Assembly (NCBI RefSeq): GCF_016469335.1
Contig: NZ_CP059888.1
Location: 1,116,001 to 1,180,000, forward strand
Length of the DNA stretch: 64,000 bases
Origin: Flocculibacter collagenilyticus
GTDB lineage: Bacteria > Pseudomonadota > Gammaproteobacteria > Enterobacterales > Alteromonadaceae
Direction: 5' to 3'
Shown: in pieces, positions 2,875 through 26,969 of the stretch
Position numbering within the stretch: position 1 is the first letter of the stretch
Layout of the letters: every line of letters begins with the position of its first letter
Translations under genes and position numbers: made by a program
The notes under the pieces: model-generated
Told to the model about the DNA's origin: nothing
The model's database searches: none
What the model saw: only the letters and a program-made list of their open reading frames with translations

Positions 2875-3597
2875 GTGTTAGCCGTTATACGTTTACTTAT
2901 TCTTGCTTTATTTTTTGTAATGTCGACGATTGCGATGATGTTATTTTGCATAATAAGGCCATTTCATCGAAACAATGTATACCATGTTGCAAAGCTATAT
3001 GGTTCGATGCATAAACTTTTTGGCGTTGAGCTTGAAGTGCGTAAACACCCTTCAATTAAAAGCGATGAACAATATGTCTATATTGCGAATCATCAAAATA
3101 ATTATGATTTATTTACAATCTCTGCGGCGGTTCAACCACGCACGGTAAGTATTGGTAAAAAAAGTTTAAAATGGGTGCCATTTTTTGGTTGGATTTATTG
3201 GCTAAGCGGCAACATCCTTATTGATAGAAATAATCGCTCTCGTGCAGCAGGCACCATTTCTCAAGCTGCTAATAAAATAAAAGATAATAAATTATCTATT
3301 TGGATGTTCCCAGAAGGAACGCGTAGTTATGGTAAAGGTTTATTGCCATTTAAAACAGGGGCATTCCATACTGCGGTACAAGCTGACGTTGCTATGGTGC
3401 CAGTATGTATGAACTCAACCTGCAAACGTATTTCATTAAATAAATGGAATAACGGCAAAGTGATTGTTGAAATGTTAGAGCCGATAAAACTGCCGAACAA
3501 TGCCAAAGAAAATATACGAGAAATCACCAATCAAACCCATGCACTAATGCACGATAAAATTAAGCAATTAGATGCCGAAGTGGGCATAAAGGAATAA
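2875..3597 (+). CDS. plsC: 1-acyl-sn-glycerol-3-phosphate acyltransferase
   Basis: Acylates lysophosphatidic acid to phosphatidic acid at the inner membrane, the second acylation of phospholipid synthesis. The 240-residue protein starts with GTG at 2875, six bases after a perfect GGAGG. The frame is open further upstream to a TTG-ATG pair, but that extension overlaps a TATAAT and lacks a ribosome site; the shorter form matches the roughly 245-residue E. coli protein. Catalytic NHQNNYD (the HX4D motif) is at 72-78 and FPEGTRS at 145-151. IDRNNRS between them is also typical of PlsC. The N-terminus is a membrane segment. Confidence 0.95.
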   Translation: MLAVIRLLILALFFVMSTIAMMLFCIIRPFHRNNVYHVAKLYGSMHKLFGVELEVRKHPSIKSDEQYVYIANHQNNYDLFTISAAVQPRTVSIGKKSLKWVPFFGWIYWLSGNILIDRNNRSRAAGTISQAANKIKDNKLSIWMFPEGTRSYGKGLLPFKTGAFHTAVQADVAMVPVCMNSTCKRISLNKWNNGKVIVEMLEPIKLPNNAKENIREITNQTHALMHDKIKQLDAEVGIKE

Positions 3598-18912: not shown

Positions 18913-19752
18913 TTATATTTGTTTGTACACTTCTTCAACTTTAGCAGCCGCACTTTTCATCGCTTGCTTAACTAACTGATCTAAATCGCCCGCTTGAAAT
19001 GCGTTGATTGCTTGCTCTGTAGCACCTTTTGGAGATGTTACTTGGCGACGAAGTTCAGCAAAAGAGTGGGGGCTGTTAGCCGCTAGCATAATAGCGCCTT
19101 TAGCACTTTGCATGACGGCGTTAGTTGCTCCTTCCTCATCCAGTCCTTGTCCTATAGCCGCTTTTACCATTGCTTCCATAAATAAGAAAAAGTACGCTGG
19201 AGAGCTTCCTGCCGCGGCAACAATAGCGGGCATAGCGTTTTCACTTTCTACCCAAACCGTGCTGCCAACTGCATTCATAATATCGTCGGCTGTAGCTTTA
19301 TCTGTATTACTACAACTGCTTTCAGCAAACATACCTGTTAGCCCCTCACCAATTGCGGTAGGTAAATTAGGCATAGTAGCAACCACACGTGGCGAGTTAT
19401 TTAAACTAGATGAAATAGCTTGTGCAGTCACGCCTGCGGCAATTGACATAAATAACTTATTTGCGATCACTTGATGATCATCGTTACTGGCGTGTACTAA
19501 CTCTTCGCACACTTCTTTTATTAAATACGGTTTAACCGAAAGAATAACGACGTCAGCAAATTTAAGTACACTACTATTATCTTGATTAGTTATAACGCCA
19601 TATTCTTCTGATAATCGGTTACGTGTTTTATCAGTAGGTGCGCAAACTAAAATGTTTTTGCTATTGTGGCCGCTTTTAATTAAGCCAGCGATAATTGCGC
19701 TAGCCATGTTGCCACCACCAATGAAAGCGATTTTTAAGTTTTCGTTTAAAAT
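18913..19752 (-). CDS. proC: Pyrroline-5-carboxylate reductase, apparent ATT start
   Basis: The last step of proline synthesis: reduces P5C to proline with NAD(P)H. The nearest ATG (19707) would give 264 residues lacking the dinucleotide-binding glycines. The frame upstream, NENLKIAFIGGGNMASA, restores the family's N-terminus but has no ATG, GTG or TTG before the in-frame stop. An ATT at 19752-19750 stands six bases after a perfect AAGGAG, giving 279 residues, close to the usual 270. The C-terminal half has the family signature around SPAYFFLFMEAM and the final RRQVTSPKGATEQAI. It is the fourth gene of putP-proB-proA-proC, 23 bases after proA. A sequencing error or edited start cannot be excluded. 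Confidence 0.92.
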   Translation of the reverse strand: MLNENLKIAFIGGGNMASAIIAGLIKSGHNSKNILVCAPTDKTRNRLSEEYGVITNQDNSSVLKFADVVILSVKPYLIKEVCEELVHASNDDHQVIANKLFMSIAAGVTAQAISSSLNNSPRVVATMPNLPTAIGEGLTGMFAESSCSNTDKATADDIMNAVGSTVWVESENAMPAIVAAAGSSPAYFFLFMEAMVKAAIGQGLDEEGATNAVMQSAKGAIMLAANSPHSFAELRRQVTSPKGATEQAINAFQAGDLDQLVKQAMKSAAAKVEEVYKQI

Positions 19753-19775: not shown

Positions 19776-21023
19776 TTAATTACGGATTTGACCGTGACCA
19801 TTTACAATATATTTTTCAGCAGTTAATGACTCAAGCCCCATCGGCCCATAAGCATGTAGCTTGGTCGTTGCTATGCCTATTTCTGCACCTAAGCCAAGTT
19901 GACTGCCATCGGAAAAACGCGAAGATGCGTTAACCATAACAACGGATGCATCCACAAGACGTTGAAACAGGTTGGCTGTAGTTGCGTTTTCAGTACAAAT
20001 GACCTCAGTATGATTACTGCCAAACTCTGCGATATGATCAAATGCACCTTGTAAATCGTCAACTAGCTTAATAGCAATTTCCAAATCTAAGTACTCTTGA
20101 CCAAAGTCATTATCGTTCAGCACATTATCAAGTGCAATGTACTGTTGAGTTTGATTACAGCCATTTAAAACTACATTGTGTTGACTAAGTATGTCGGCGG
20201 CTAGTGGCAAAAATTTATCAGCAATGTCTTTATGAACGATTAAACCTTCAAGGGCATTACAAACGCCAGTGCGCTGAGTTTTTCCATTCACTAATAAATT
20301 AATTGCGCGCTCAAGATCCGCGTCTTTGTCGATGTATAAATGGCACACCCCTTTAAAGTGCTGAATCACAGGTATTTTACTATTATCAGTAACATACTGG
20401 ATTAGCCCTTCACCACCGCGAGGGATGATAACGTCAATGTATTCGCGTTGTGCCATCAGCTCCATTAATAATGCGCGATCAGGATTTGGGATAATCGTAA
20501 TAAGTGCTTCAGGCAACTCATGTTGTCTTAATACTTGATGTAATACTTCAGCAATGGCTTTACTGCTATTTAAGGCTTCGCGTCCACCGCGTAAAATTAC
20601 TGCATTACCAGACTTAAAACATAATGCCCCTGCATCCGCGGTTACATTTGGACGCGCTTCATAAATCATACACACCACTCCAAGAGGAATGCGCATTTTA
20701 CTGATTTTTAAGCCATTAGGACGTTGTCCTAAATCGCGTAATTGTCCTACTGGGTCGTCTAATTTTGCAATTGTTTCAATGCCTTCCGCCATATCATTGA
20801 TACGCTCAGCGTTAAGCGTAAGACGGTCGATCATAGCTTCTGCTAAGTTATTCTCTCTTGCGCTAACTAGGTCGATTTCGTTACCGGCTAAAATAGGTGT
20901 CGCATTAGCTCTCAGTGCGTGCGCCATATCAAGTAATACCGCATTCTTTTTTTCGGTAGTGAGCGACGCAAGAATACGTGATGATGTTGCTGCATTTTTT
21001 GCCAGTTGTGTAATTAAACTCAT
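19776..21023 (-). CDS. proA: Glutamate-5-semialdehyde dehydrogenase (gamma-glutamyl phosphate reductase)
   Basis: Reduces gamma-glutamyl phosphate to glutamate semialdehyde, which cyclises to P5C for ProC. It has 415 residues, the normal length, with the catalytic Cys255 in QRTGVCNALEG and the NADPH region around YEARPNVTADAGALC (121-135). Its ATG shares one base with the proB stop (TAATG), so translation is coupled. proC follows 23 bases later with its own AAGGAG. Confidence 0.96.
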   Translation of the reverse strand: MSLITQLAKNAATSSRILASLTTEKKNAVLLDMAHALRANATPILAGNEIDLVSARENNLAEAMIDRLTLNAERINDMAEGIETIAKLDDPVGQLRDLGQRPNGLKISKMRIPLGVVCMIYEARPNVTADAGALCFKSGNAVILRGGREALNSSKAIAEVLHQVLRQHELPEALITIIPNPDRALLMELMAQREYIDVIIPRGGEGLIQYVTDNSKIPVIQHFKGVCHLYIDKDADLERAINLLVNGKTQRTGVCNALEGLIVHKDIADKFLPLAADILSQHNVVLNGCNQTQQYIALDNVLNDNDFGQEYLDLEIAIKLVDDLQGAFDHIAEFGSNHTEVICTENATTANLFQRLVDASVVMVNASSRFSDGSQLGLGAEIGIATTKLHAYGPMGLESLTAEKYIVNGHGQIRN

Positions 21024-22126
21024 TATTTCTCCAGAATTGCGATGTTTTCGTCTGATACGATAGGACCGGTTTTTTTTATGTATTGTGCAGTTGTTGGTCC
21101 TGTTTCGTTTTCAGCAATGTAATTTAATAAACAACTACTGTAATTAGTGCGCGCTTTAGCGATTTTTGTACCGTCGTTCTTACGTAACAAAATAGTATCA
21201 CCAATAGAAAAGTTACCTTTTACTTGGATGATTTCGTCTCCGGTAATTTGTTCCACTTCATCTTCATTCGGCATGTCGAATGTGCTATCAACAATTAACT
21301 CACCTTGTTCAGTTGATGTATGTTTCATCCAATGAACATTTTCCTGCATAGGTGTTTTATGGCTATGGAAATGCGTTCCGGGGTTTCTACCTGCAAGCAG
21401 TTCATTGAATACCTGCTCATTAAAACCATTGATAATAAAGGTGCTAATACCATGTGATACGGCTTTTTCGGCCGCTTCAATTTTAGTACGCATACCGCCT
21501 GTGCCTACGCCGCTGGTGGCACCGCCTGCCATAGCATAAATATCATCATTAATTTCAGCCACATCTGACAGTAACTTGGCGTTTTTATCAAGATTTGGGT
21601 TGCTGGTGAACAATCCATCAATATCAGAGCACATGATTAAGGCATCCGCATCGGCGGCGGTTGCTACCATAGCTGATAAATTGTCGTTATCACCTACTTT
21701 TAAATTGTCTGTGGTAACCGTGTCATTTTCATTAATAATGGGTAACACATCATGTTCTAACAGCGAAAATATGGTGGCACGAATACTTTCGTAGCGCTCT
21801 CTATCACGAAGGTCGCCATGTGTTAATAAAATTTGGGCAGAAGGGAAATCGAATAACTTGTCCCACGTTGCCATCATTTCAGTTTGTCCTGTTGCTGCCA
21901 TTGCTTTTTTCAGTGCAATATCACGCTTTTCGCCTTGTGCGAATTGGTGGGCGCCTGCGGCCACTGAGCCAGACGAAACTAAAACAACTTGTACGCCTTG
22001 CGCGCGACAATGCACAATAAAGCGTGCGATGCTGAGCAGGTGATGGGGACTACATCCAGTATTATTAGGCGCAATGAGTGCGCTACCAACTTTTACTACG
22101 ATGCGTTTCCAGTTAAACGATTTCAT
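21023..22126 (-). CDS. proB: Glutamate 5-kinase with PUA domain
   Basis: Phosphorylates glutamate to start proline synthesis, normally feedback-inhibited by proline. It has 367 residues: an amino acid kinase domain (about 1-255, with KVGSALI and VSSGSVAAG for ATP and glutamate binding and a GVGTGGMRTKI block near 205) and a C-terminal PUA domain (about 275-360). GAGG sits five bases before the ATG. It begins 13 bases after the putP stop. Whether proline inhibition is retained cannot be told from sequence alone. Confidence 0.96.
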   Translation of the reverse strand: MKSFNWKRIVVKVGSALIAPNNTGCSPHHLLSIARFIVHCRAQGVQVVLVSSGSVAAGAHQFAQGEKRDIALKKAMAATGQTEMMATWDKLFDFPSAQILLTHGDLRDRERYESIRATIFSLLEHDVLPIINENDTVTTDNLKVGDNDNLSAMVATAADADALIMCSDIDGLFTSNPNLDKNAKLLSDVAEINDDIYAMAGGATSGVGTGGMRTKIEAAEKAVSHGISTFIINGFNEQVFNELLAGRNPGTHFHSHKTPMQENVHWMKHTSTEQGELIVDSTFDMPNEDEVEQITGDEIIQVKGNFSIGDTILLRKNDGTKIAKARTNYSSCLLNYIAENETGPTTAQYIKKTGPIVSDENIAILEK

Positions 22127-22139
22127 ATAACCTCAGGTG

Positions 22140-23651
22140 TTAAGCGTTGTTTGACGAAAAGTGCTGTTGAACTTTGTAAAACTGAGTTGTTACAGCGTTT
22201 GAAGGTTCTCTGCTTTGAAGGCTCACAAAATAGATAAATAATGAGCTAACTATAAAGCCAGGAACCATCTCATATATAATGCTAGAAAGTGGTTTTGCAT
22301 TAGCCAAAATTGGGAATTGACTCCATACGATGACGGTGACAGCGCCTGATACTATGCCTGCAATAGCGCCTTTACTGGTGAGTTTTGGCCAGAACAAACT
22401 GAACAGTACAAGTGGGCCAAATGCCGCGCCAAACCCCGCCCATGCATTACTTACAAGGGATAAAATACTATTAGACTTGTCAAACGCCAGTATCACCGCG
22501 ACAAGTGCCACTACAAGTACACCGATGCGACCAATGTTGACGAGTTGTTTTTCTGATACTTCTTCTGTAGTAAATACGCGGTAGATATCTTCAGTGAGTG
22601 AACTTGATGACACTAATAATTGAGATGAAATCGTACTCATGATTGCAGCAAGGATAGCTGCTAATAAAAAGCCACTAATAAAAGGGTGAAATAAGATTTG
22701 CGAAAATACGATGAAAATTGTTTCAGGATCGCTAATAGGGTAATTAAACTTGTTAGCGTATGCGACACCCACAAAACCTGTGGCTAATGCACCTAAAATA
22801 GTGACCGTCATCCAGCTCATGCCAATATTTCGCGCAGTGGAAATATCATTCACCGAGCGGATAGCCATAAAGCGAACAATGATGTGCGGCTGTCCAAAAT
22901 AGCCGAGTCCCCACGCTAAACTAGAGATGAGACCAAGTACGGTTAAACTTCCCAAGGCGTCTGAAATGCTTGGAATGCTATTAGCTGCATAAGCAGGTAC
23001 CTCTGCGGCATTATCGAATGATTGCAAGGCAACAATGGGAACTAATACCAATGCGATAAACATGATACATCCTTGCACAAAGTCGGTGAGACTTACGGCT
23101 AGGAAACCGCCTAATAAAGTGTATGCAACCACTACAGAGACCGTGATAATTAGTCCCATATGATAATTAATGCCAAATGCTGACTCAAATAACTTACCGC
23201 CAGCCACTAGGCCAGCAGAGGTATACAGAGTAAAAAATAGAATAATGACACAAGCAGAAACAATGCGTAACGTATGTTGACTATTTCCAATTCGTTTTGA
23301 GAAAAACTCAGGTAGTGTTAAGGCGTTATCTGCCATCTCTGTATATACACGCAATCGAGGTGCAACAAGTAGATAGTTAAATAGTGCACCGATTAGTAAA
23401 CCTATAGCAATCCATATTGTGTCGTAGCCAGCAGCAAACATTGCACCGGGCAAGCCCATAAGCATCCAACCACTCATATCAGAAGCTCCCGCAGAAAGTG
23501 CGGTAACTTGTGGACTAACTTGTCTACCGCCAAGCAAATAACCTGAAATGTCGCTCGTTGATTTACGGTATGCGAATAACCCTATGGCAAGCATTGCGAC
23601 AAAATAAATGCCGAGAGATGCCAAACTTTCAACTGCTATCGTTGTATTCAT
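22140..23651 (-). CDS. putP: Sodium/proline symporter
   Basis: Sodium-coupled proline uptake across the inner membrane. It has 503 residues and about 13 hydrophobic segments of the SSS family, with the family's GGRQVSPQVTALSAGASDMSGW block near 41-62 and SSLAWGLGYFGQPHI further on. PutP is usually paired with the catabolic putA; here it leads the biosynthetic proB-proA-proC operon, which points to proline accumulation rather than breakdown. Ribosome site is weak (GGAAT). It is divergent from a CosR-like regulator. Confidence 0.92.
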   Translation of the reverse strand: MNTTIAVESLASLGIYFVAMLAIGLFAYRKSTSDISGYLLGGRQVSPQVTALSAGASDMSGWMLMGLPGAMFAAGYDTIWIAIGLLIGALFNYLLVAPRLRVYTEMADNALTLPEFFSKRIGNSQHTLRIVSACVIILFFTLYTSAGLVAGGKLFESAFGINYHMGLIITVSVVVAYTLLGGFLAVSLTDFVQGCIMFIALVLVPIVALQSFDNAAEVPAYAANSIPSISDALGSLTVLGLISSLAWGLGYFGQPHIIVRFMAIRSVNDISTARNIGMSWMTVTILGALATGFVGVAYANKFNYPISDPETIFIVFSQILFHPFISGFLLAAILAAIMSTISSQLLVSSSSLTEDIYRVFTTEEVSEKQLVNIGRIGVLVVALVAVILAFDKSNSILSLVSNAWAGFGAAFGPLVLFSLFWPKLTSKGAIAGIVSGAVTVIVWSQFPILANAKPLSSIIYEMVPGFIVSSLFIYFVSLQSREPSNAVTTQFYKVQQHFSSNNA

Positions 23652-24310
23652 TGTTCTATTCCGTTTGTAAGAAATTAAGTAATTTATTAATTGTTATCGT
23701 TTTACTTTATTAAGGGGCGAAATTGATAATGCCACAATGTTGCTGTGGCTCAACTTTCCTTAGCGTAACACCGAATAGGAGATGAACCGATAGCTATATG
23801 TGGAAGAGGGGGAGTTTTACCAGATTGCGCGTTGCGCTCATTTGAAATAAGGATGAAATTAGTGTTTACGGTGTACATAAAATACTTTTGCTCGTTGTGT
23901 AAATTGAGGTTATTTCATTTGAATACTAATTAATGCTTTATGTGTGATATTTGACAACTTCAGAAATTAATTAGTATTAAAATGATTAGTGTTCGAATTA
24001 AAATTGTACGCGCATTAAACATTAATATCAAATTTTGTTCGTTATTAATAATTTCAAGCTTGTTTTATAGCGCTTTATATCTTTTAAATTGATTTTATAT
24101 GAGTTTAGTACTAATTAATTATGCGATGGTTCTATTAATTTATCAGCGATATTCTTTATATAGTCGAATAAAATCATTTGAATACTAACTTTTGCTGGTA
24201 TGATTGCTTGGGTTTACCATTTAGCGGTGTGCGTGAGTAACATGTTATGTGTTTAGCTTGACGTGCTGACCATTCGAATCTGAGTTTAGTAGTAATTAAG
24301 CGTAAAAATT
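23652..24310. other. Divergent regulatory region of putP and the CosR-like gene, 659 bases
   Basis: A very AT-rich region with no coding frame I can support. From 23917 onward it is studded with copies of one motif (see the operator array). The part close to putP (23652-23880) must hold the putP promoter but shows only a short CCACA/TGTGG hairpin at 23732-23748. Confidence 0.7.
23917..24299. promoter_or_regulatory. Array of six MarR-type operator-like repeats
   Basis: The motif ATTTGAATACTAATTAA occurs at 23917-23933, inverted with one mismatch at 23967-23983 and inverted and degenerate at 23984-23998. An 18-mer GAGTTTAGTACTAATTAA at 24101-24118 shares its right half and contains the palindrome TTAGTACTAA. 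ATTTGAATACTAA recurs exactly at 24176-24188. A near-copy of the 18-mer (17 of 18 bases) lies at 24282-24299, ending 11 bases before the regulator's start. The spread and both orientations suit cooperative binding and autoregulation by the adjacent MarR-family protein. No binding is shown here; the link is inference from position and repetition. Confidence 0.65.
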
Positions 24311-24790
24311 ATGATGAAAAAATATGATGAGTTATTTATTTCGTTACGACGAGTTATTCGTGCGATAGATCTTTATTCTAAAAAGTTAAGCAAAGAAACA
24401 GGCTTAACCAGTCCTCAGCTAATTGTTCTACAGGAAATTGCTGCGGGGAAAGGGATCATGGTTAAGCAAATCGCTGAAAATATTAATTTGAGCTCAGCTA
24501 CTGTCACTAGCATTCTTGATCGTTTAGAGAGCCGTGGATTGGTTACTCGTGAGCGCTCTACTGCAGATAAACGTAAAGTGGACTTATTTCTTACCGATAG
24601 GGGTAACGAGGTGCTATCTTCGGCCCCTAAACCGCTCCAAGATCATTTCATTAATCGGTTTGAAGGCTTAGATGAGTGGGAACAAACACAAATGGTTGCC
24701 ACAATGCAACGACTGGCGAAAATGATGGATGCAGAAGAGCTAGATGCTGCGCCATTGCTGGAGGTTGGTACAATTCAAACAAAGCAATAA
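24311..24790 (+). CDS. cosR: MarR family regulator, CosR/EctR-like
   Basis: A 159-residue winged-helix repressor. The N-terminus (SLRRVIRAIDLYSKKLSKE, 11-29, then TGLTSPQLIVL), the recognition helix around 59-72 (NLSSATVTSILDRLE), the wing RERSTADKRKVDLFLTDRG at 80-98, and the tail PLQDHFINRFEGLDEWEQ with PLLEVG near the end strongly resemble the CosR/EctR1 group. That group represses compatible-solute genes such as ectoine synthesis and betaine uptake at low salinity. It is divergent from putP-proBAC with repeats between, so a role in proline osmoadaptation is likely. No clear ribosome site precedes the paired ATG codons. Confidence 0.75.
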   Translation: MMKKYDELFISLRRVIRAIDLYSKKLSKETGLTSPQLIVLQEIAAGKGIMVKQIAENINLSSATVTSILDRLESRGLVTRERSTADKRKVDLFLTDRGNEVLSSAPKPLQDHFINRFEGLDEWEQTQMVATMQRLAKMMDAEELDAAPLLEVGTIQTKQ

Positions 24791-24992: not shown

Positions 24993-26969
24993 ATGCAAAG
25001 CAAAAAAGTTGACCGCAAGTCAACAGGCTTATTGCTGCCTGCTTGTACCCTACTACTATCAACCATCGCTGTATCTAACGCTGTACACGCGGTTGAAAGA
25101 GGCATGATAAGCAACGATTTTTCTAATTTAACACAACGTTTTATTGTGACTTACGAGTCTGACGAATCGAAAGATTGGCAGAACGAAGCGCAAGTGATTT
25201 CAATGTTTGCGGGAAATGATGTTAAATACATGCGTCAATTGGCGGTAAACAAGCATCATCTTTTCAAGCTAGAAAAGCCAGTCGACAGTGTAAAATTTCA
25301 ATCTATGATTGAACGATTAGGCGCGATGTCTGGCGTTGTAACCGTAGAAAAAGATTCAATCATGACAATTCAGTCAGTTCCTAATGATACGCGTTACAAC
25401 GATCAATGGCACTATTTTGAAGCGACCGGTGGCATTAATGCTCCGTCGGCTTGGGATAACTCTACTGGTAGCGGCGCCGTTGTTGCGGTTATCGATACTG
25501 GTTATGTATATCACTCAGATTTAGACGCAAATATGCTACCTGGTTATGATTTCATCAGTGATACGTCGGTTGCAAATGACGGTAACGGACGAGACTCTGA
25601 CGCAAGTGACCCAGGTGATTGGTTGTCGGCAAATGAGTGTGGTTTCTTCAACCCACCAAGTGCGGTAAGTAGCAGTTGGCACGGTACTCATGTTGCAGGT
25701 ACTATTGCTGCCGTGAGTAACAATGGTGCAGGTGTAGCAGGTGTTGCTTATAACGCTAAAGTAGTACCAGTAAGGGTATTAGGTAAATGTGGCGGTTATT
25801 TATCTGATATTACAGACGCCATTGTTTGGGCATCTGGTGGCAGCGTGTCAGGGGTTCCTGCAAACGCAAATCCAGCTGATGTTATTAATATGAGCCTGGG
25901 TGGAAGTGGTTCTTGTAGCAGCAGTTATCAATCGGCCATTAATACGGCAAGAGCAAATGGCACCACGGTTGTGGTAGCAGCAGGGAACAGTAATGCTGAC
26001 GCAAGTGGCTTTAGTCCTGCAAGCTGTAACGGCGTTATTTCTGTCGCATCAAATGATCGTCAAGGTAACCGCGCTTCTTATTCAAACTACGGTAGTTCTG
26101 TTGATTTAGCAGCGCCAGGCGGCGAAACTGCAACAACGTCAAATGGAGTGCTTTCTACACTCAACTCTGGTAGCCAATCTCCAGCTTCAGAGTCTTATGC
26201 ATACTATCAAGGTACGAGTATGGCAGCACCACATGCTGCGGGTGTAGCGGCATTAATGTATGCTGCAAATTCAAGTATTACGCCTGATCAAGTTGAAACG
26301 GCAATGAAAAATACTGCACGTACTTTACCTGGTAGTTGTTCAGGTGGTTGTGGTGCAGGTATAGTAGATGCGGCAGCAGCTGTTGCAGCAGCAGGTGGCG
26401 GCGGTGGCAATCAAAGCCCGTCTGCAAGCTTTGGTGTATCAACTAACCAATTAACAGCAAGCTTCACAGACGGTAGTTCGGATCCAGATGGTAGCATTGT
26501 AAGCTGGAGCTGGAACTTTGGTGACGGTGCAACGTCTAGTGCACAAAACCCATCTCATACTTACGGAGCAAGTGGTACTTACACGGTTTCTTTAACAGTA
26601 ACTGATAATGATGGCGCGTCAAATAGTACTTCTCAGTCAGTTGATGTTTCTGATGGTTCGGCAAATACCGGCGGATTTACAGAAGAAAACTTGGCTGCAA
26701 GTCGCCGTAGCTGGATCCGTCGTACAATTGAAGTGCCAGCTGGAGCAACGAGTCTAGATGTTGATATTAGTGGTGGTAGTGGTGATGCTGACTTATATGT
26801 TCGCTTCGGTAGCCAGCCAACAACTTGGTATTACAACTGTCGTCCTTACTTATATGGTAATAACGAAACATGTACTTTCACAAATCCTCAAGCAGGTACT
26901 TGGCACATTGGTATTCGCGCTTACAGTGCATTCTCAAGTGTTAAGCTAGATGCTTACTGGAATAAGTAG
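24993..26969 (+). CDS. Secreted subtilisin-like serine protease (S8) with PKD and PPC domains
   Basis: A 658-residue exported protease. A signal peptide (about 1-33) precedes an inhibitor I9-like propeptide (about 47-125). The catalytic domain has Asp168 in VIDTG, His233 in GTHVAGT, Asn332 for the oxyanion hole, and Ser409 in GTSMAAPH. A Gly-rich linker leads to a PKD domain (about 475-553, with the WNFGDG block) and one C-terminal PPC domain (about 565-655, GDADLYVRFGS). GGAG precedes the ATG. The PPC domain closely resembles those of the M14 carboxypeptidase at 4933-7530, so both exoenzymes probably share a secretion and maturation route, likely type II secretion. Confidence 0.92.
   Translation: MQSKKVDRKSTGLLLPACTLLLSTIAVSNAVHAVERGMISNDFSNLTQRFIVTYESDESKDWQNEAQVISMFAGNDVKYMRQLAVNKHHLFKLEKPVDSVKFQSMIERLGAMSGVVTVEKDSIMTIQSVPNDTRYNDQWHYFEATGGINAPSAWDNSTGSGAVVAVIDTGYVYHSDLDANMLPGYDFISDTSVANDGNGRDSDASDPGDWLSANECGFFNPPSAVSSSWHGTHVAGTIAAVSNNGAGVAGVAYNAKVVPVRVLGKCGGYLSDITDAIVWASGGSVSGVPANANPADVINMSLGGSGSCSSSYQSAINTARANGTTVVVAAGNSNADASGFSPASCNGVISVASNDRQGNRASYSNYGSSVDLAAPGGETATTSNGVLSTLNSGSQSPASESYAYYQGTSMAAPHAAGVAALMYAANSSITPDQVETAMKNTARTLPGSCSGGCGAGIVDAAAAVAAAGGGGGNQSPSASFGVSTNQLTASFTDGSSDPDGSIVSWSWNFGDGATSSAQNPSHTYGASGTYTVSLTVTDNDGASNSTSQSVDVSDGSANTGGFTEENLAASRRSWIRRTIEVPAGATSLDVDISGGSGDADLYVRFGSQPTTWYYNCRPYLYGNNETCTFTNPQAGTWHIGIRAYSAFSSVKLDAYWNK

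Follow-up and report, generated by a model that had tools for sequence, protein, structure and literature searches.

The repeats in the window, a 64,000-base stretch of DNA (bases 1116001-1180000 of a genome that is one contig of 3,973,578 bases), are best explained, with a probability of about 0.84, as the operator array of a putative repressor of the CosR/EctR clade. The repressor is encoded at 24311-24790 (feature coordinates are those of the window) and would control its own gene as well as the divergent putP-proB-proA-proC cluster. This reading draws on the boxes, their conservation and position, the gene neighbourhood and the relatives of the regulator. Known CosR/EctR targets are ectoine and betaine genes; the apparent target here is instead a set of proline genes, putP-proBAC. 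This cluster is the evident target, and was not named as such in the first-pass annotation of this DNA.

The regulator and the divergent proline cluster

The regulator gene (plus strand) encodes a 159 aa protein with a MarR winged helix-turn-helix domain (Pfam PF01047, 59.9 bits against a cut-off of 24.6); it reaches no NCBIfam equivalog cut-off. Divergent from it, tightly packed on the minus strand, are genes for a sodium/proline symporter (putP, 22140-23651; TIGR02121 at 684 bits, cut-off 515.5), glutamate 5-kinase (proB, 21023-22126; TIGR01027 above cut-off), glutamate-5-semialdehyde dehydrogenase (proA, 19776-21023; NF001221 and TIGR00407 above cut-off) and pyrroline-5-carboxylate reductase (proC, 18913-19707; TIGR00112 above cut-off). 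PutP and ProA each have their single genome-wide match in this cluster. Family models identified no putA among the four cluster genes. The listed proC frame begins within the nucleotide-binding region, with the TIGR00112 match running from model position 9, and the gene probably starts a little further upstream, by a few codons, at a different start codon.

The space between the regulator gene and putP is 659 bp long, with 31% GC. No terminator-like site was found between 23600 and 24340. An RNA element was rejected as an explanation, since no Rfam family reaches its gathering score between 23000 and 25500. Downstream of the regulator gene, a plus-strand gene (24993-26969) encodes a subtilase with PKD and pre-peptidase C-terminal domains.

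In a tree of 40 rows the protein falls inside a group of 37 (support 96/86) that includes orthologues beside putP, proB and BCCT genes, proteins of Vibrio and Aeromonas, and alphaproteobacterial proteins linked to ectABC. Outside this group are two paralogues from the same genome and a Hungatella protein, three outgroup rows on very long branches. The protein thus groups, in a tree with few outgroups whose members are contextual homologues (L094-L099 and 20 further loci) rather than biochemically characterised CosR or EctR1, with regulators linked to ectABC, proVWX and BCCT genes and apart from other MarR proteins. The gene context is of the same kind: the regulator is encoded beside compatible-solute genes, here divergent from putP-proBAC and in relatives at BCCT, OpuAC or ect genes. 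Tree and context together support assignment to the CosR/EctR clade, the part of the first-pass suggestion of a CosR regulon that has held up.

An array of 22-bp palindromes

Regulator orthologues were matched in 141 of 295 genomes of the same order (E <= 1e-25). The 520 bp upstream of the regulator at ten orthologue loci (L028-L037, of which L033 and L034 are near-identical), with the window excluded, served as the training set, from which an expectation-maximisation script derived a 22-bp palindrome, approximately AATnnTTnGAATTCnAAnnATT. When the 64 kb window was scanned with this matrix, the best three matches and four of the best five were inside the regulator-putP intergenic region. These are box 5 (24172-24193, plus strand), the best in the window at 18.5, box 3 (23981-24002, minus strand) at 18.2, box 1 (23913-23934, plus strand) at 17.5 and, in fifth place, box 2 (23966-23987, minus strand) at 12.2, which overlaps box 3 at a start-to-start offset of 15 bp.

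All six repeat copies reported earlier, in both orientations, were located within 23913-24300. They lie at 23917-23934 (plus), 23966-23983 (minus, one mismatch to the first copy), 23981-23998 (minus, four mismatches), 24101-24118 (plus), 24175-24192 (plus, half conserved) and 24282-24299 (plus). As had been described, the copy at 24282 differs from that at 24101 at one of 18 bases, and the last copy, ending at 24299, is 11 bases from the regulator's start codon (ATG at 24311). The unit had been given as 17-18 bases; the copies are present, but the actual unit is the 22-bp palindrome. The repeat that looked weakest by eye (23981-24002, box 3) is the best conserved in relatives, with scores of 22.9 in L034 and L035.

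Of the six repeats, four correspond to good boxes, scoring 12-18.5. The other two form a near-identical pair, GAGTTTAGTA[C/G]TAATTAA (GAGTTTAGTACTAATTAA and GAGTTTAGTAGTAATTAA), matching the palindrome on one half only, and are probably half-sites: the GAGTTTAGTACTAATTAA copy gives a weak or half box at 24098-24119 (plus strand, score 7.0), and the GAGTTTAGTAGTAATTAA copy only a half-site at 24279-24300 (plus strand, score -1.5). The half-sites of the box at 24098-24119 look 2 bp too close together; shortening the matrix by 2 bp did not make it stand out. Matrices with altered spacing (centre -2, -4, +1, +2 or +4 bp) gave no cluster within the intergenic region, so that a second operator class made of this pair is unsupported.

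The four sites scoring at least 12 in the 659-bp region compare with a mean of 0.02 and a maximum of 2 in 2000 dinucleotide shuffles, in agreement with the first-pass view that the repeats exceed what AT-rich sequence yields by chance. Elsewhere in the window there is one match of at least 12 in 63,341 positions. Equally AT-rich pieces of the window (3,800 bp) contain no match of at least 12. Genome-wide, a tight version of the pattern occurs at 19 places in 3.97 Mb, four of them within 281 bp at the regulator-putP locus, against 38 places for a control pattern. There is thus no genome-wide excess, and the exceptional feature is the clustering only, not the frequency of the pattern. The count below control would speak for chance repeats in AT-rich DNA, but none of the 2000 shuffles reached four sites and the matrix was derived from other genomes; with the held-out loci described below, these results refute chance, which we regard as a negligible prospect.

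An array of boxes is normal for this regulator, because each of the ten training loci contains between two and four boxes scoring at least 12. The first-pass remark that a multi-site array is uncommon for MarR proteins does not stand, also because PecS, a member of the MarR family, is reported to bind two or three sites, overlapping ones included (PMC6391409). The cooperative multi-site repressor proposed there fares better: the repeats behave like multiple operators of the adjacent MarR regulator, which would act as a repressor.

The box beside relatives and elsewhere in this genome

Three sets of held-out loci place the box near relatives of the regulator. Among 34 additional loci from the order, 13 have their best match in the 300 bp before the regulator (3.1 expected, P = 4e-6), and a match of at least 9 occurs in this proximal segment at 12 of the 34, against 4 of 340 other segments; counter to this, the best match lies outside the proximal 300 bp at 21 loci. 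For the eight BCCT-regulator pairs (L057-L064), the best match is always 2.1-2.2 kb upstream (at least 14 in six of them), about where the BCCT gene should begin, judged from BetT model positions. The third set comprises twenty Vibrio-like loci from the matches of the order-wide search, with regulators 63-75% identical to that of V. nigripulchritudo. Where a BCCT gene is divergent from the regulator (nine loci), a match of at least 6 always lies between the two genes (at least 9.8 in eight). In 10 of the 20, the top-ranking one of six segments is the proximal 400 bp (3.3 expected, P = 6e-4), but the 11 loci lacking a divergent BCCT gene mostly have no box near the regulator. On a V. nigripulchritudo plasmid, where the MarR gene is beside annotated ectA, ectB and proVWX, the top four matches of 10.5 kb are all between ectA and proV. 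Among distant relatives, Vibrio-like genomes included, the box is seen again at promoters of BCCT or proX genes.

Eleven loci (L065-L073, L075 and L076) contain no match above 8.5. The DNA motif is not common to the whole CosR/EctR group, because two ectABC loci of alphaproteobacteria lack it (best scores -0.1 and 4.4). A class-level search with the Vibrio protein for CosR relatives gave none in 274 genomes at 1e-55.

Neighbours were identified by family search or tblastn. A putP, proB or proA gene is divergent from or adjacent to the regulator at L024/L028, L029-L032, L035-L037, L074 and L116, the neighbour being PutP or SSF (L028, L030, L031, L035, L074), ProB (L029, L032, L036, L037) or ProA (L116). 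Other neighbours are OpuAC/ProX (L108, L118, L130, L131, L149, L154, L156, L167), BCCT (L039, L120, L094, L098 and nine Vibrio-like loci) and ectAB or ectABC (L096, L097, L099). Opposite the regulator orthologue at L112 is a gene for a 605 aa EctA-EctB fusion (1132-2949 of that locus, minus strand; TIGR02406 followed by TIGR02407, both above cut-off). Many loci have no recognised compatible-solute neighbour (e.g., L025, L026, L045, L049, L055, L113 and L124, and further L126, L128, L134, L143 and L144), and no Pfam model matched the neighbour in L106.

Another DNA-binding protein, such as a global osmotic or nucleoid regulator, might own the boxes, with the MarR gene a bystander target. The loci at which the regulator has no box, and the AT-richness of the intergenic region (31% GC), would fit this. 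We consider it very unlikely, because the box stays with regulator orthologues whether the neighbour is putP, proB, BCCT, proX or ect, because it has the form of a MarR-type 22-bp palindrome, and because the recognition region of the protein is conserved (17-18 of 20 residues identical between the window and L028, L029, L031, L032 and L037).

Within this genome the regulon appears local, consisting of putP-proBAC and possibly the regulator gene, because the single BCCT gene has no box, OpuAC is absent (in a search with a positive control), EctC was not found (in a search whose control likewise gave no match anywhere), and the outside places inspected are not beside compatible-solute genes. All 19 places with the tight pattern were scored with the matrix; the best three are in the intergenic region, and seven of the ten scoring at least 13 are elsewhere. 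Hits at ectoine, betaine or choline genes had been anticipated in the first-pass annotation, but none of 11 of the 15 outside places (all except 1930923, 1939379, 1977657 and 2811554), inspected by eye, is beside a recognised compatible-solute gene. The neighbours noted by eye, with no family search, include recA, katG, greB and prfB. Another version of the pattern was counted at 93 places; 52 places, picked by eye among the matches listed, were scored with the matrix. At L077 (approximately 3250-3450), opposite the genome's single BCCT gene, a sequence before an aspartokinase gene resembles, by eye, a thr-operon leader peptide and attenuator.

CosR of Vibrio is a MarR-type repressor of ectABC-asp, betIBA-proXWV, bccT3 and proVWX (PMC7876524). 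It and the present regulator share a protein group, by tree and context. A box lies between BCCT gene and regulator wherever the two are divergent in the Vibrio-like set (nine of nine), and V. nigripulchritudo has one between ectA and proV. Unlike CosR, the regulator here has putP-proB-proA-proC as neighbour and apparent target, in a genome with no OpuAC, with EctC undetected (the control being silent) and with one BCCT gene that has no box. No sign was found that the regulator controls ectoine, betaine or BCCT genes of its own genome, as CosR does in Vibrio, and this part of the first-pass suggestion is not supported.

The regulator might instead sense proline or a breakdown product, a CosR-like ancestor having been turned to the homeostasis of proline as a nutrient and amino acid. 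Its targets are the genome's only PutP and ProA, which must also have a housekeeping role, and MarR proteins are often released by ligands (PMC6391409). Against this, relatives have the regulator and box at BCCT, OpuAC/ProX and ect genes, where the common theme is osmoprotection and not proline metabolism, and no putA is among the four cluster genes. We judge proline sensing unlikely, if the least so of the alternatives, and prefer osmotic control.

Promoter register and proposed mode of action

A predicted putP promoter (TTGATA-17-TACAAT, 10 of 12 positions; 24003-24031, minus strand) ends just before box 3, which directly follows its -10 toward putP. Promoter-like sites are not more numerous than in shuffles, and the predicted promoter alone is no better than chance; the argument rests on a register common to the window and to L031 and L033-L036, where the box directly follows TTGATC-16-TATCAT (TAACAT in L035) toward the divergent side. 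In L036, a short frame occupies the place of putP upstream of proB. By eye, its start resembles the PutP N-terminus. The boxes remain, and putP appears to have been deleted, bringing proB up to the promoter.

That the regulator activates putP-proBAC, with upstream boxes recruiting polymerase, would suit boxes 1 and 5, which overlap no recognised promoter, and some MarR relatives (e.g., SlyA) counter H-NS (PMC2156107). It is nevertheless improbable: the best conserved box is directly after the predicted -10, a repressor position, and CosR and EctR are reported as repressors (PMC7876524, PMC5924519). Both are described as MarR-type proteins whose repressed targets are genes for ectoine, betaine and BCCT transporters (PMC7876524, PMC5924519). 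The operator of EctR/EctR1 of methylotrophs is reported to be AT-rich and pseudopalindromic, with 2 bp separating its two 8-bp half-sites, and to overlap the ectA -10 (PMC5924519, PMC8759281). The box here agrees with it in geometry and lies at the start of the divergent putative operon; the target genes differ.

We propose that a regulator dimer would bind the 22-bp AT-rich palindrome. Boxes 2 and 3 overlap at 15 bp directly downstream of the predicted -10, so that with a dimer on each the putP start site would be covered and the cluster, whose four genes may be read as a single transcript, would be blocked. Other sites, boxes 1 and 5 among them, may add cooperativity or looping, and the remaining sites may let the regulator limit its own expression. 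Such autoregulation would depend on weak sites, because no box of at least 12 is at the regulator's own promoter in the window. Higher salt or ionic strength would loosen binding and so raise the uptake and the synthesis of proline together. Repression would have to leave basal expression, because the only PutP and ProA found are in this cluster.

The cue sensed by CosR/EctR regulators is itself stated as unknown (PMC5924519). Sodium/proline symporters were not differentially expressed in a salinity transcriptome of Alteromonas macleodii (PMC5864184), a mild argument against salt having a strong effect on them in that relative. Tentatively, and at somewhat less than even odds, a CosR/EctR-clade repressor may have been rewired into a dedicated proline-as-osmolyte switch, in a genome with only this PutP and ProA and no detected ectoine synthesis or ProU, the 15-bp tandem operator giving a steep cooperative salt threshold. 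The proline case would make one repressor transferable between osmolyte systems with its box retained. Within the literature covered, to which most subscription journals do not belong, we came across no description of putP-proBAC as a site of CosR/EctR control. With the matrix for the CosR/EctR box, any marine genome can be searched for the regulon.

Other MarR proteins bear comparison. At PecS-type operators, the DNA between divergent genes contains several palindromes that are bound cooperatively, and in A. fabrum two of the sites overlap (PMC6391409). Multiple palindromic sites between divergent genes and an overlapping pair are shared with the present array, while subfamily, motif and targets differ. 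For the MarR protein SCO3205 of Streptomyces, two operators were likewise found by orthologue comparison, and their consensus, TTnAAnnnTCAA (PMC3737563), has similar spacing; its targets are unrelated and there is no overlapping tandem.

The 15-bp overlap of boxes 2 and 3 recurs in many relatives' loci. Because the ends of a palindrome can overlap themselves, scoring was confined to the 15 columns that the first box does not cover. In the held-out loci a second positive box occurs at offset 15 for 9 of 46 strong boxes, whereas the remaining 74 offsets together give 43 of 3305 (P = 2e-8), and 15 is the top of the 75 offsets tested. With the training loci included, a second box above score 5 is at this offset in 9 of 96 cases versus 0.18% elsewhere. 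Fifteen bp is approximately 1.4 helical turns, which would put the two dimers on different faces of the DNA. If the reading is right, a tandem overlap of exactly 15 bp has been kept from this family to Vibrio-like genomes, and the overlapping double box offers a testable idea for a switch-like response. In L162, one of the Vibrio-like loci that lack a divergent BCCT gene, boxes scoring 17.5 and 13.4 at the 15-bp offset are far from the gene, 462 and 477 bp before the regulator.
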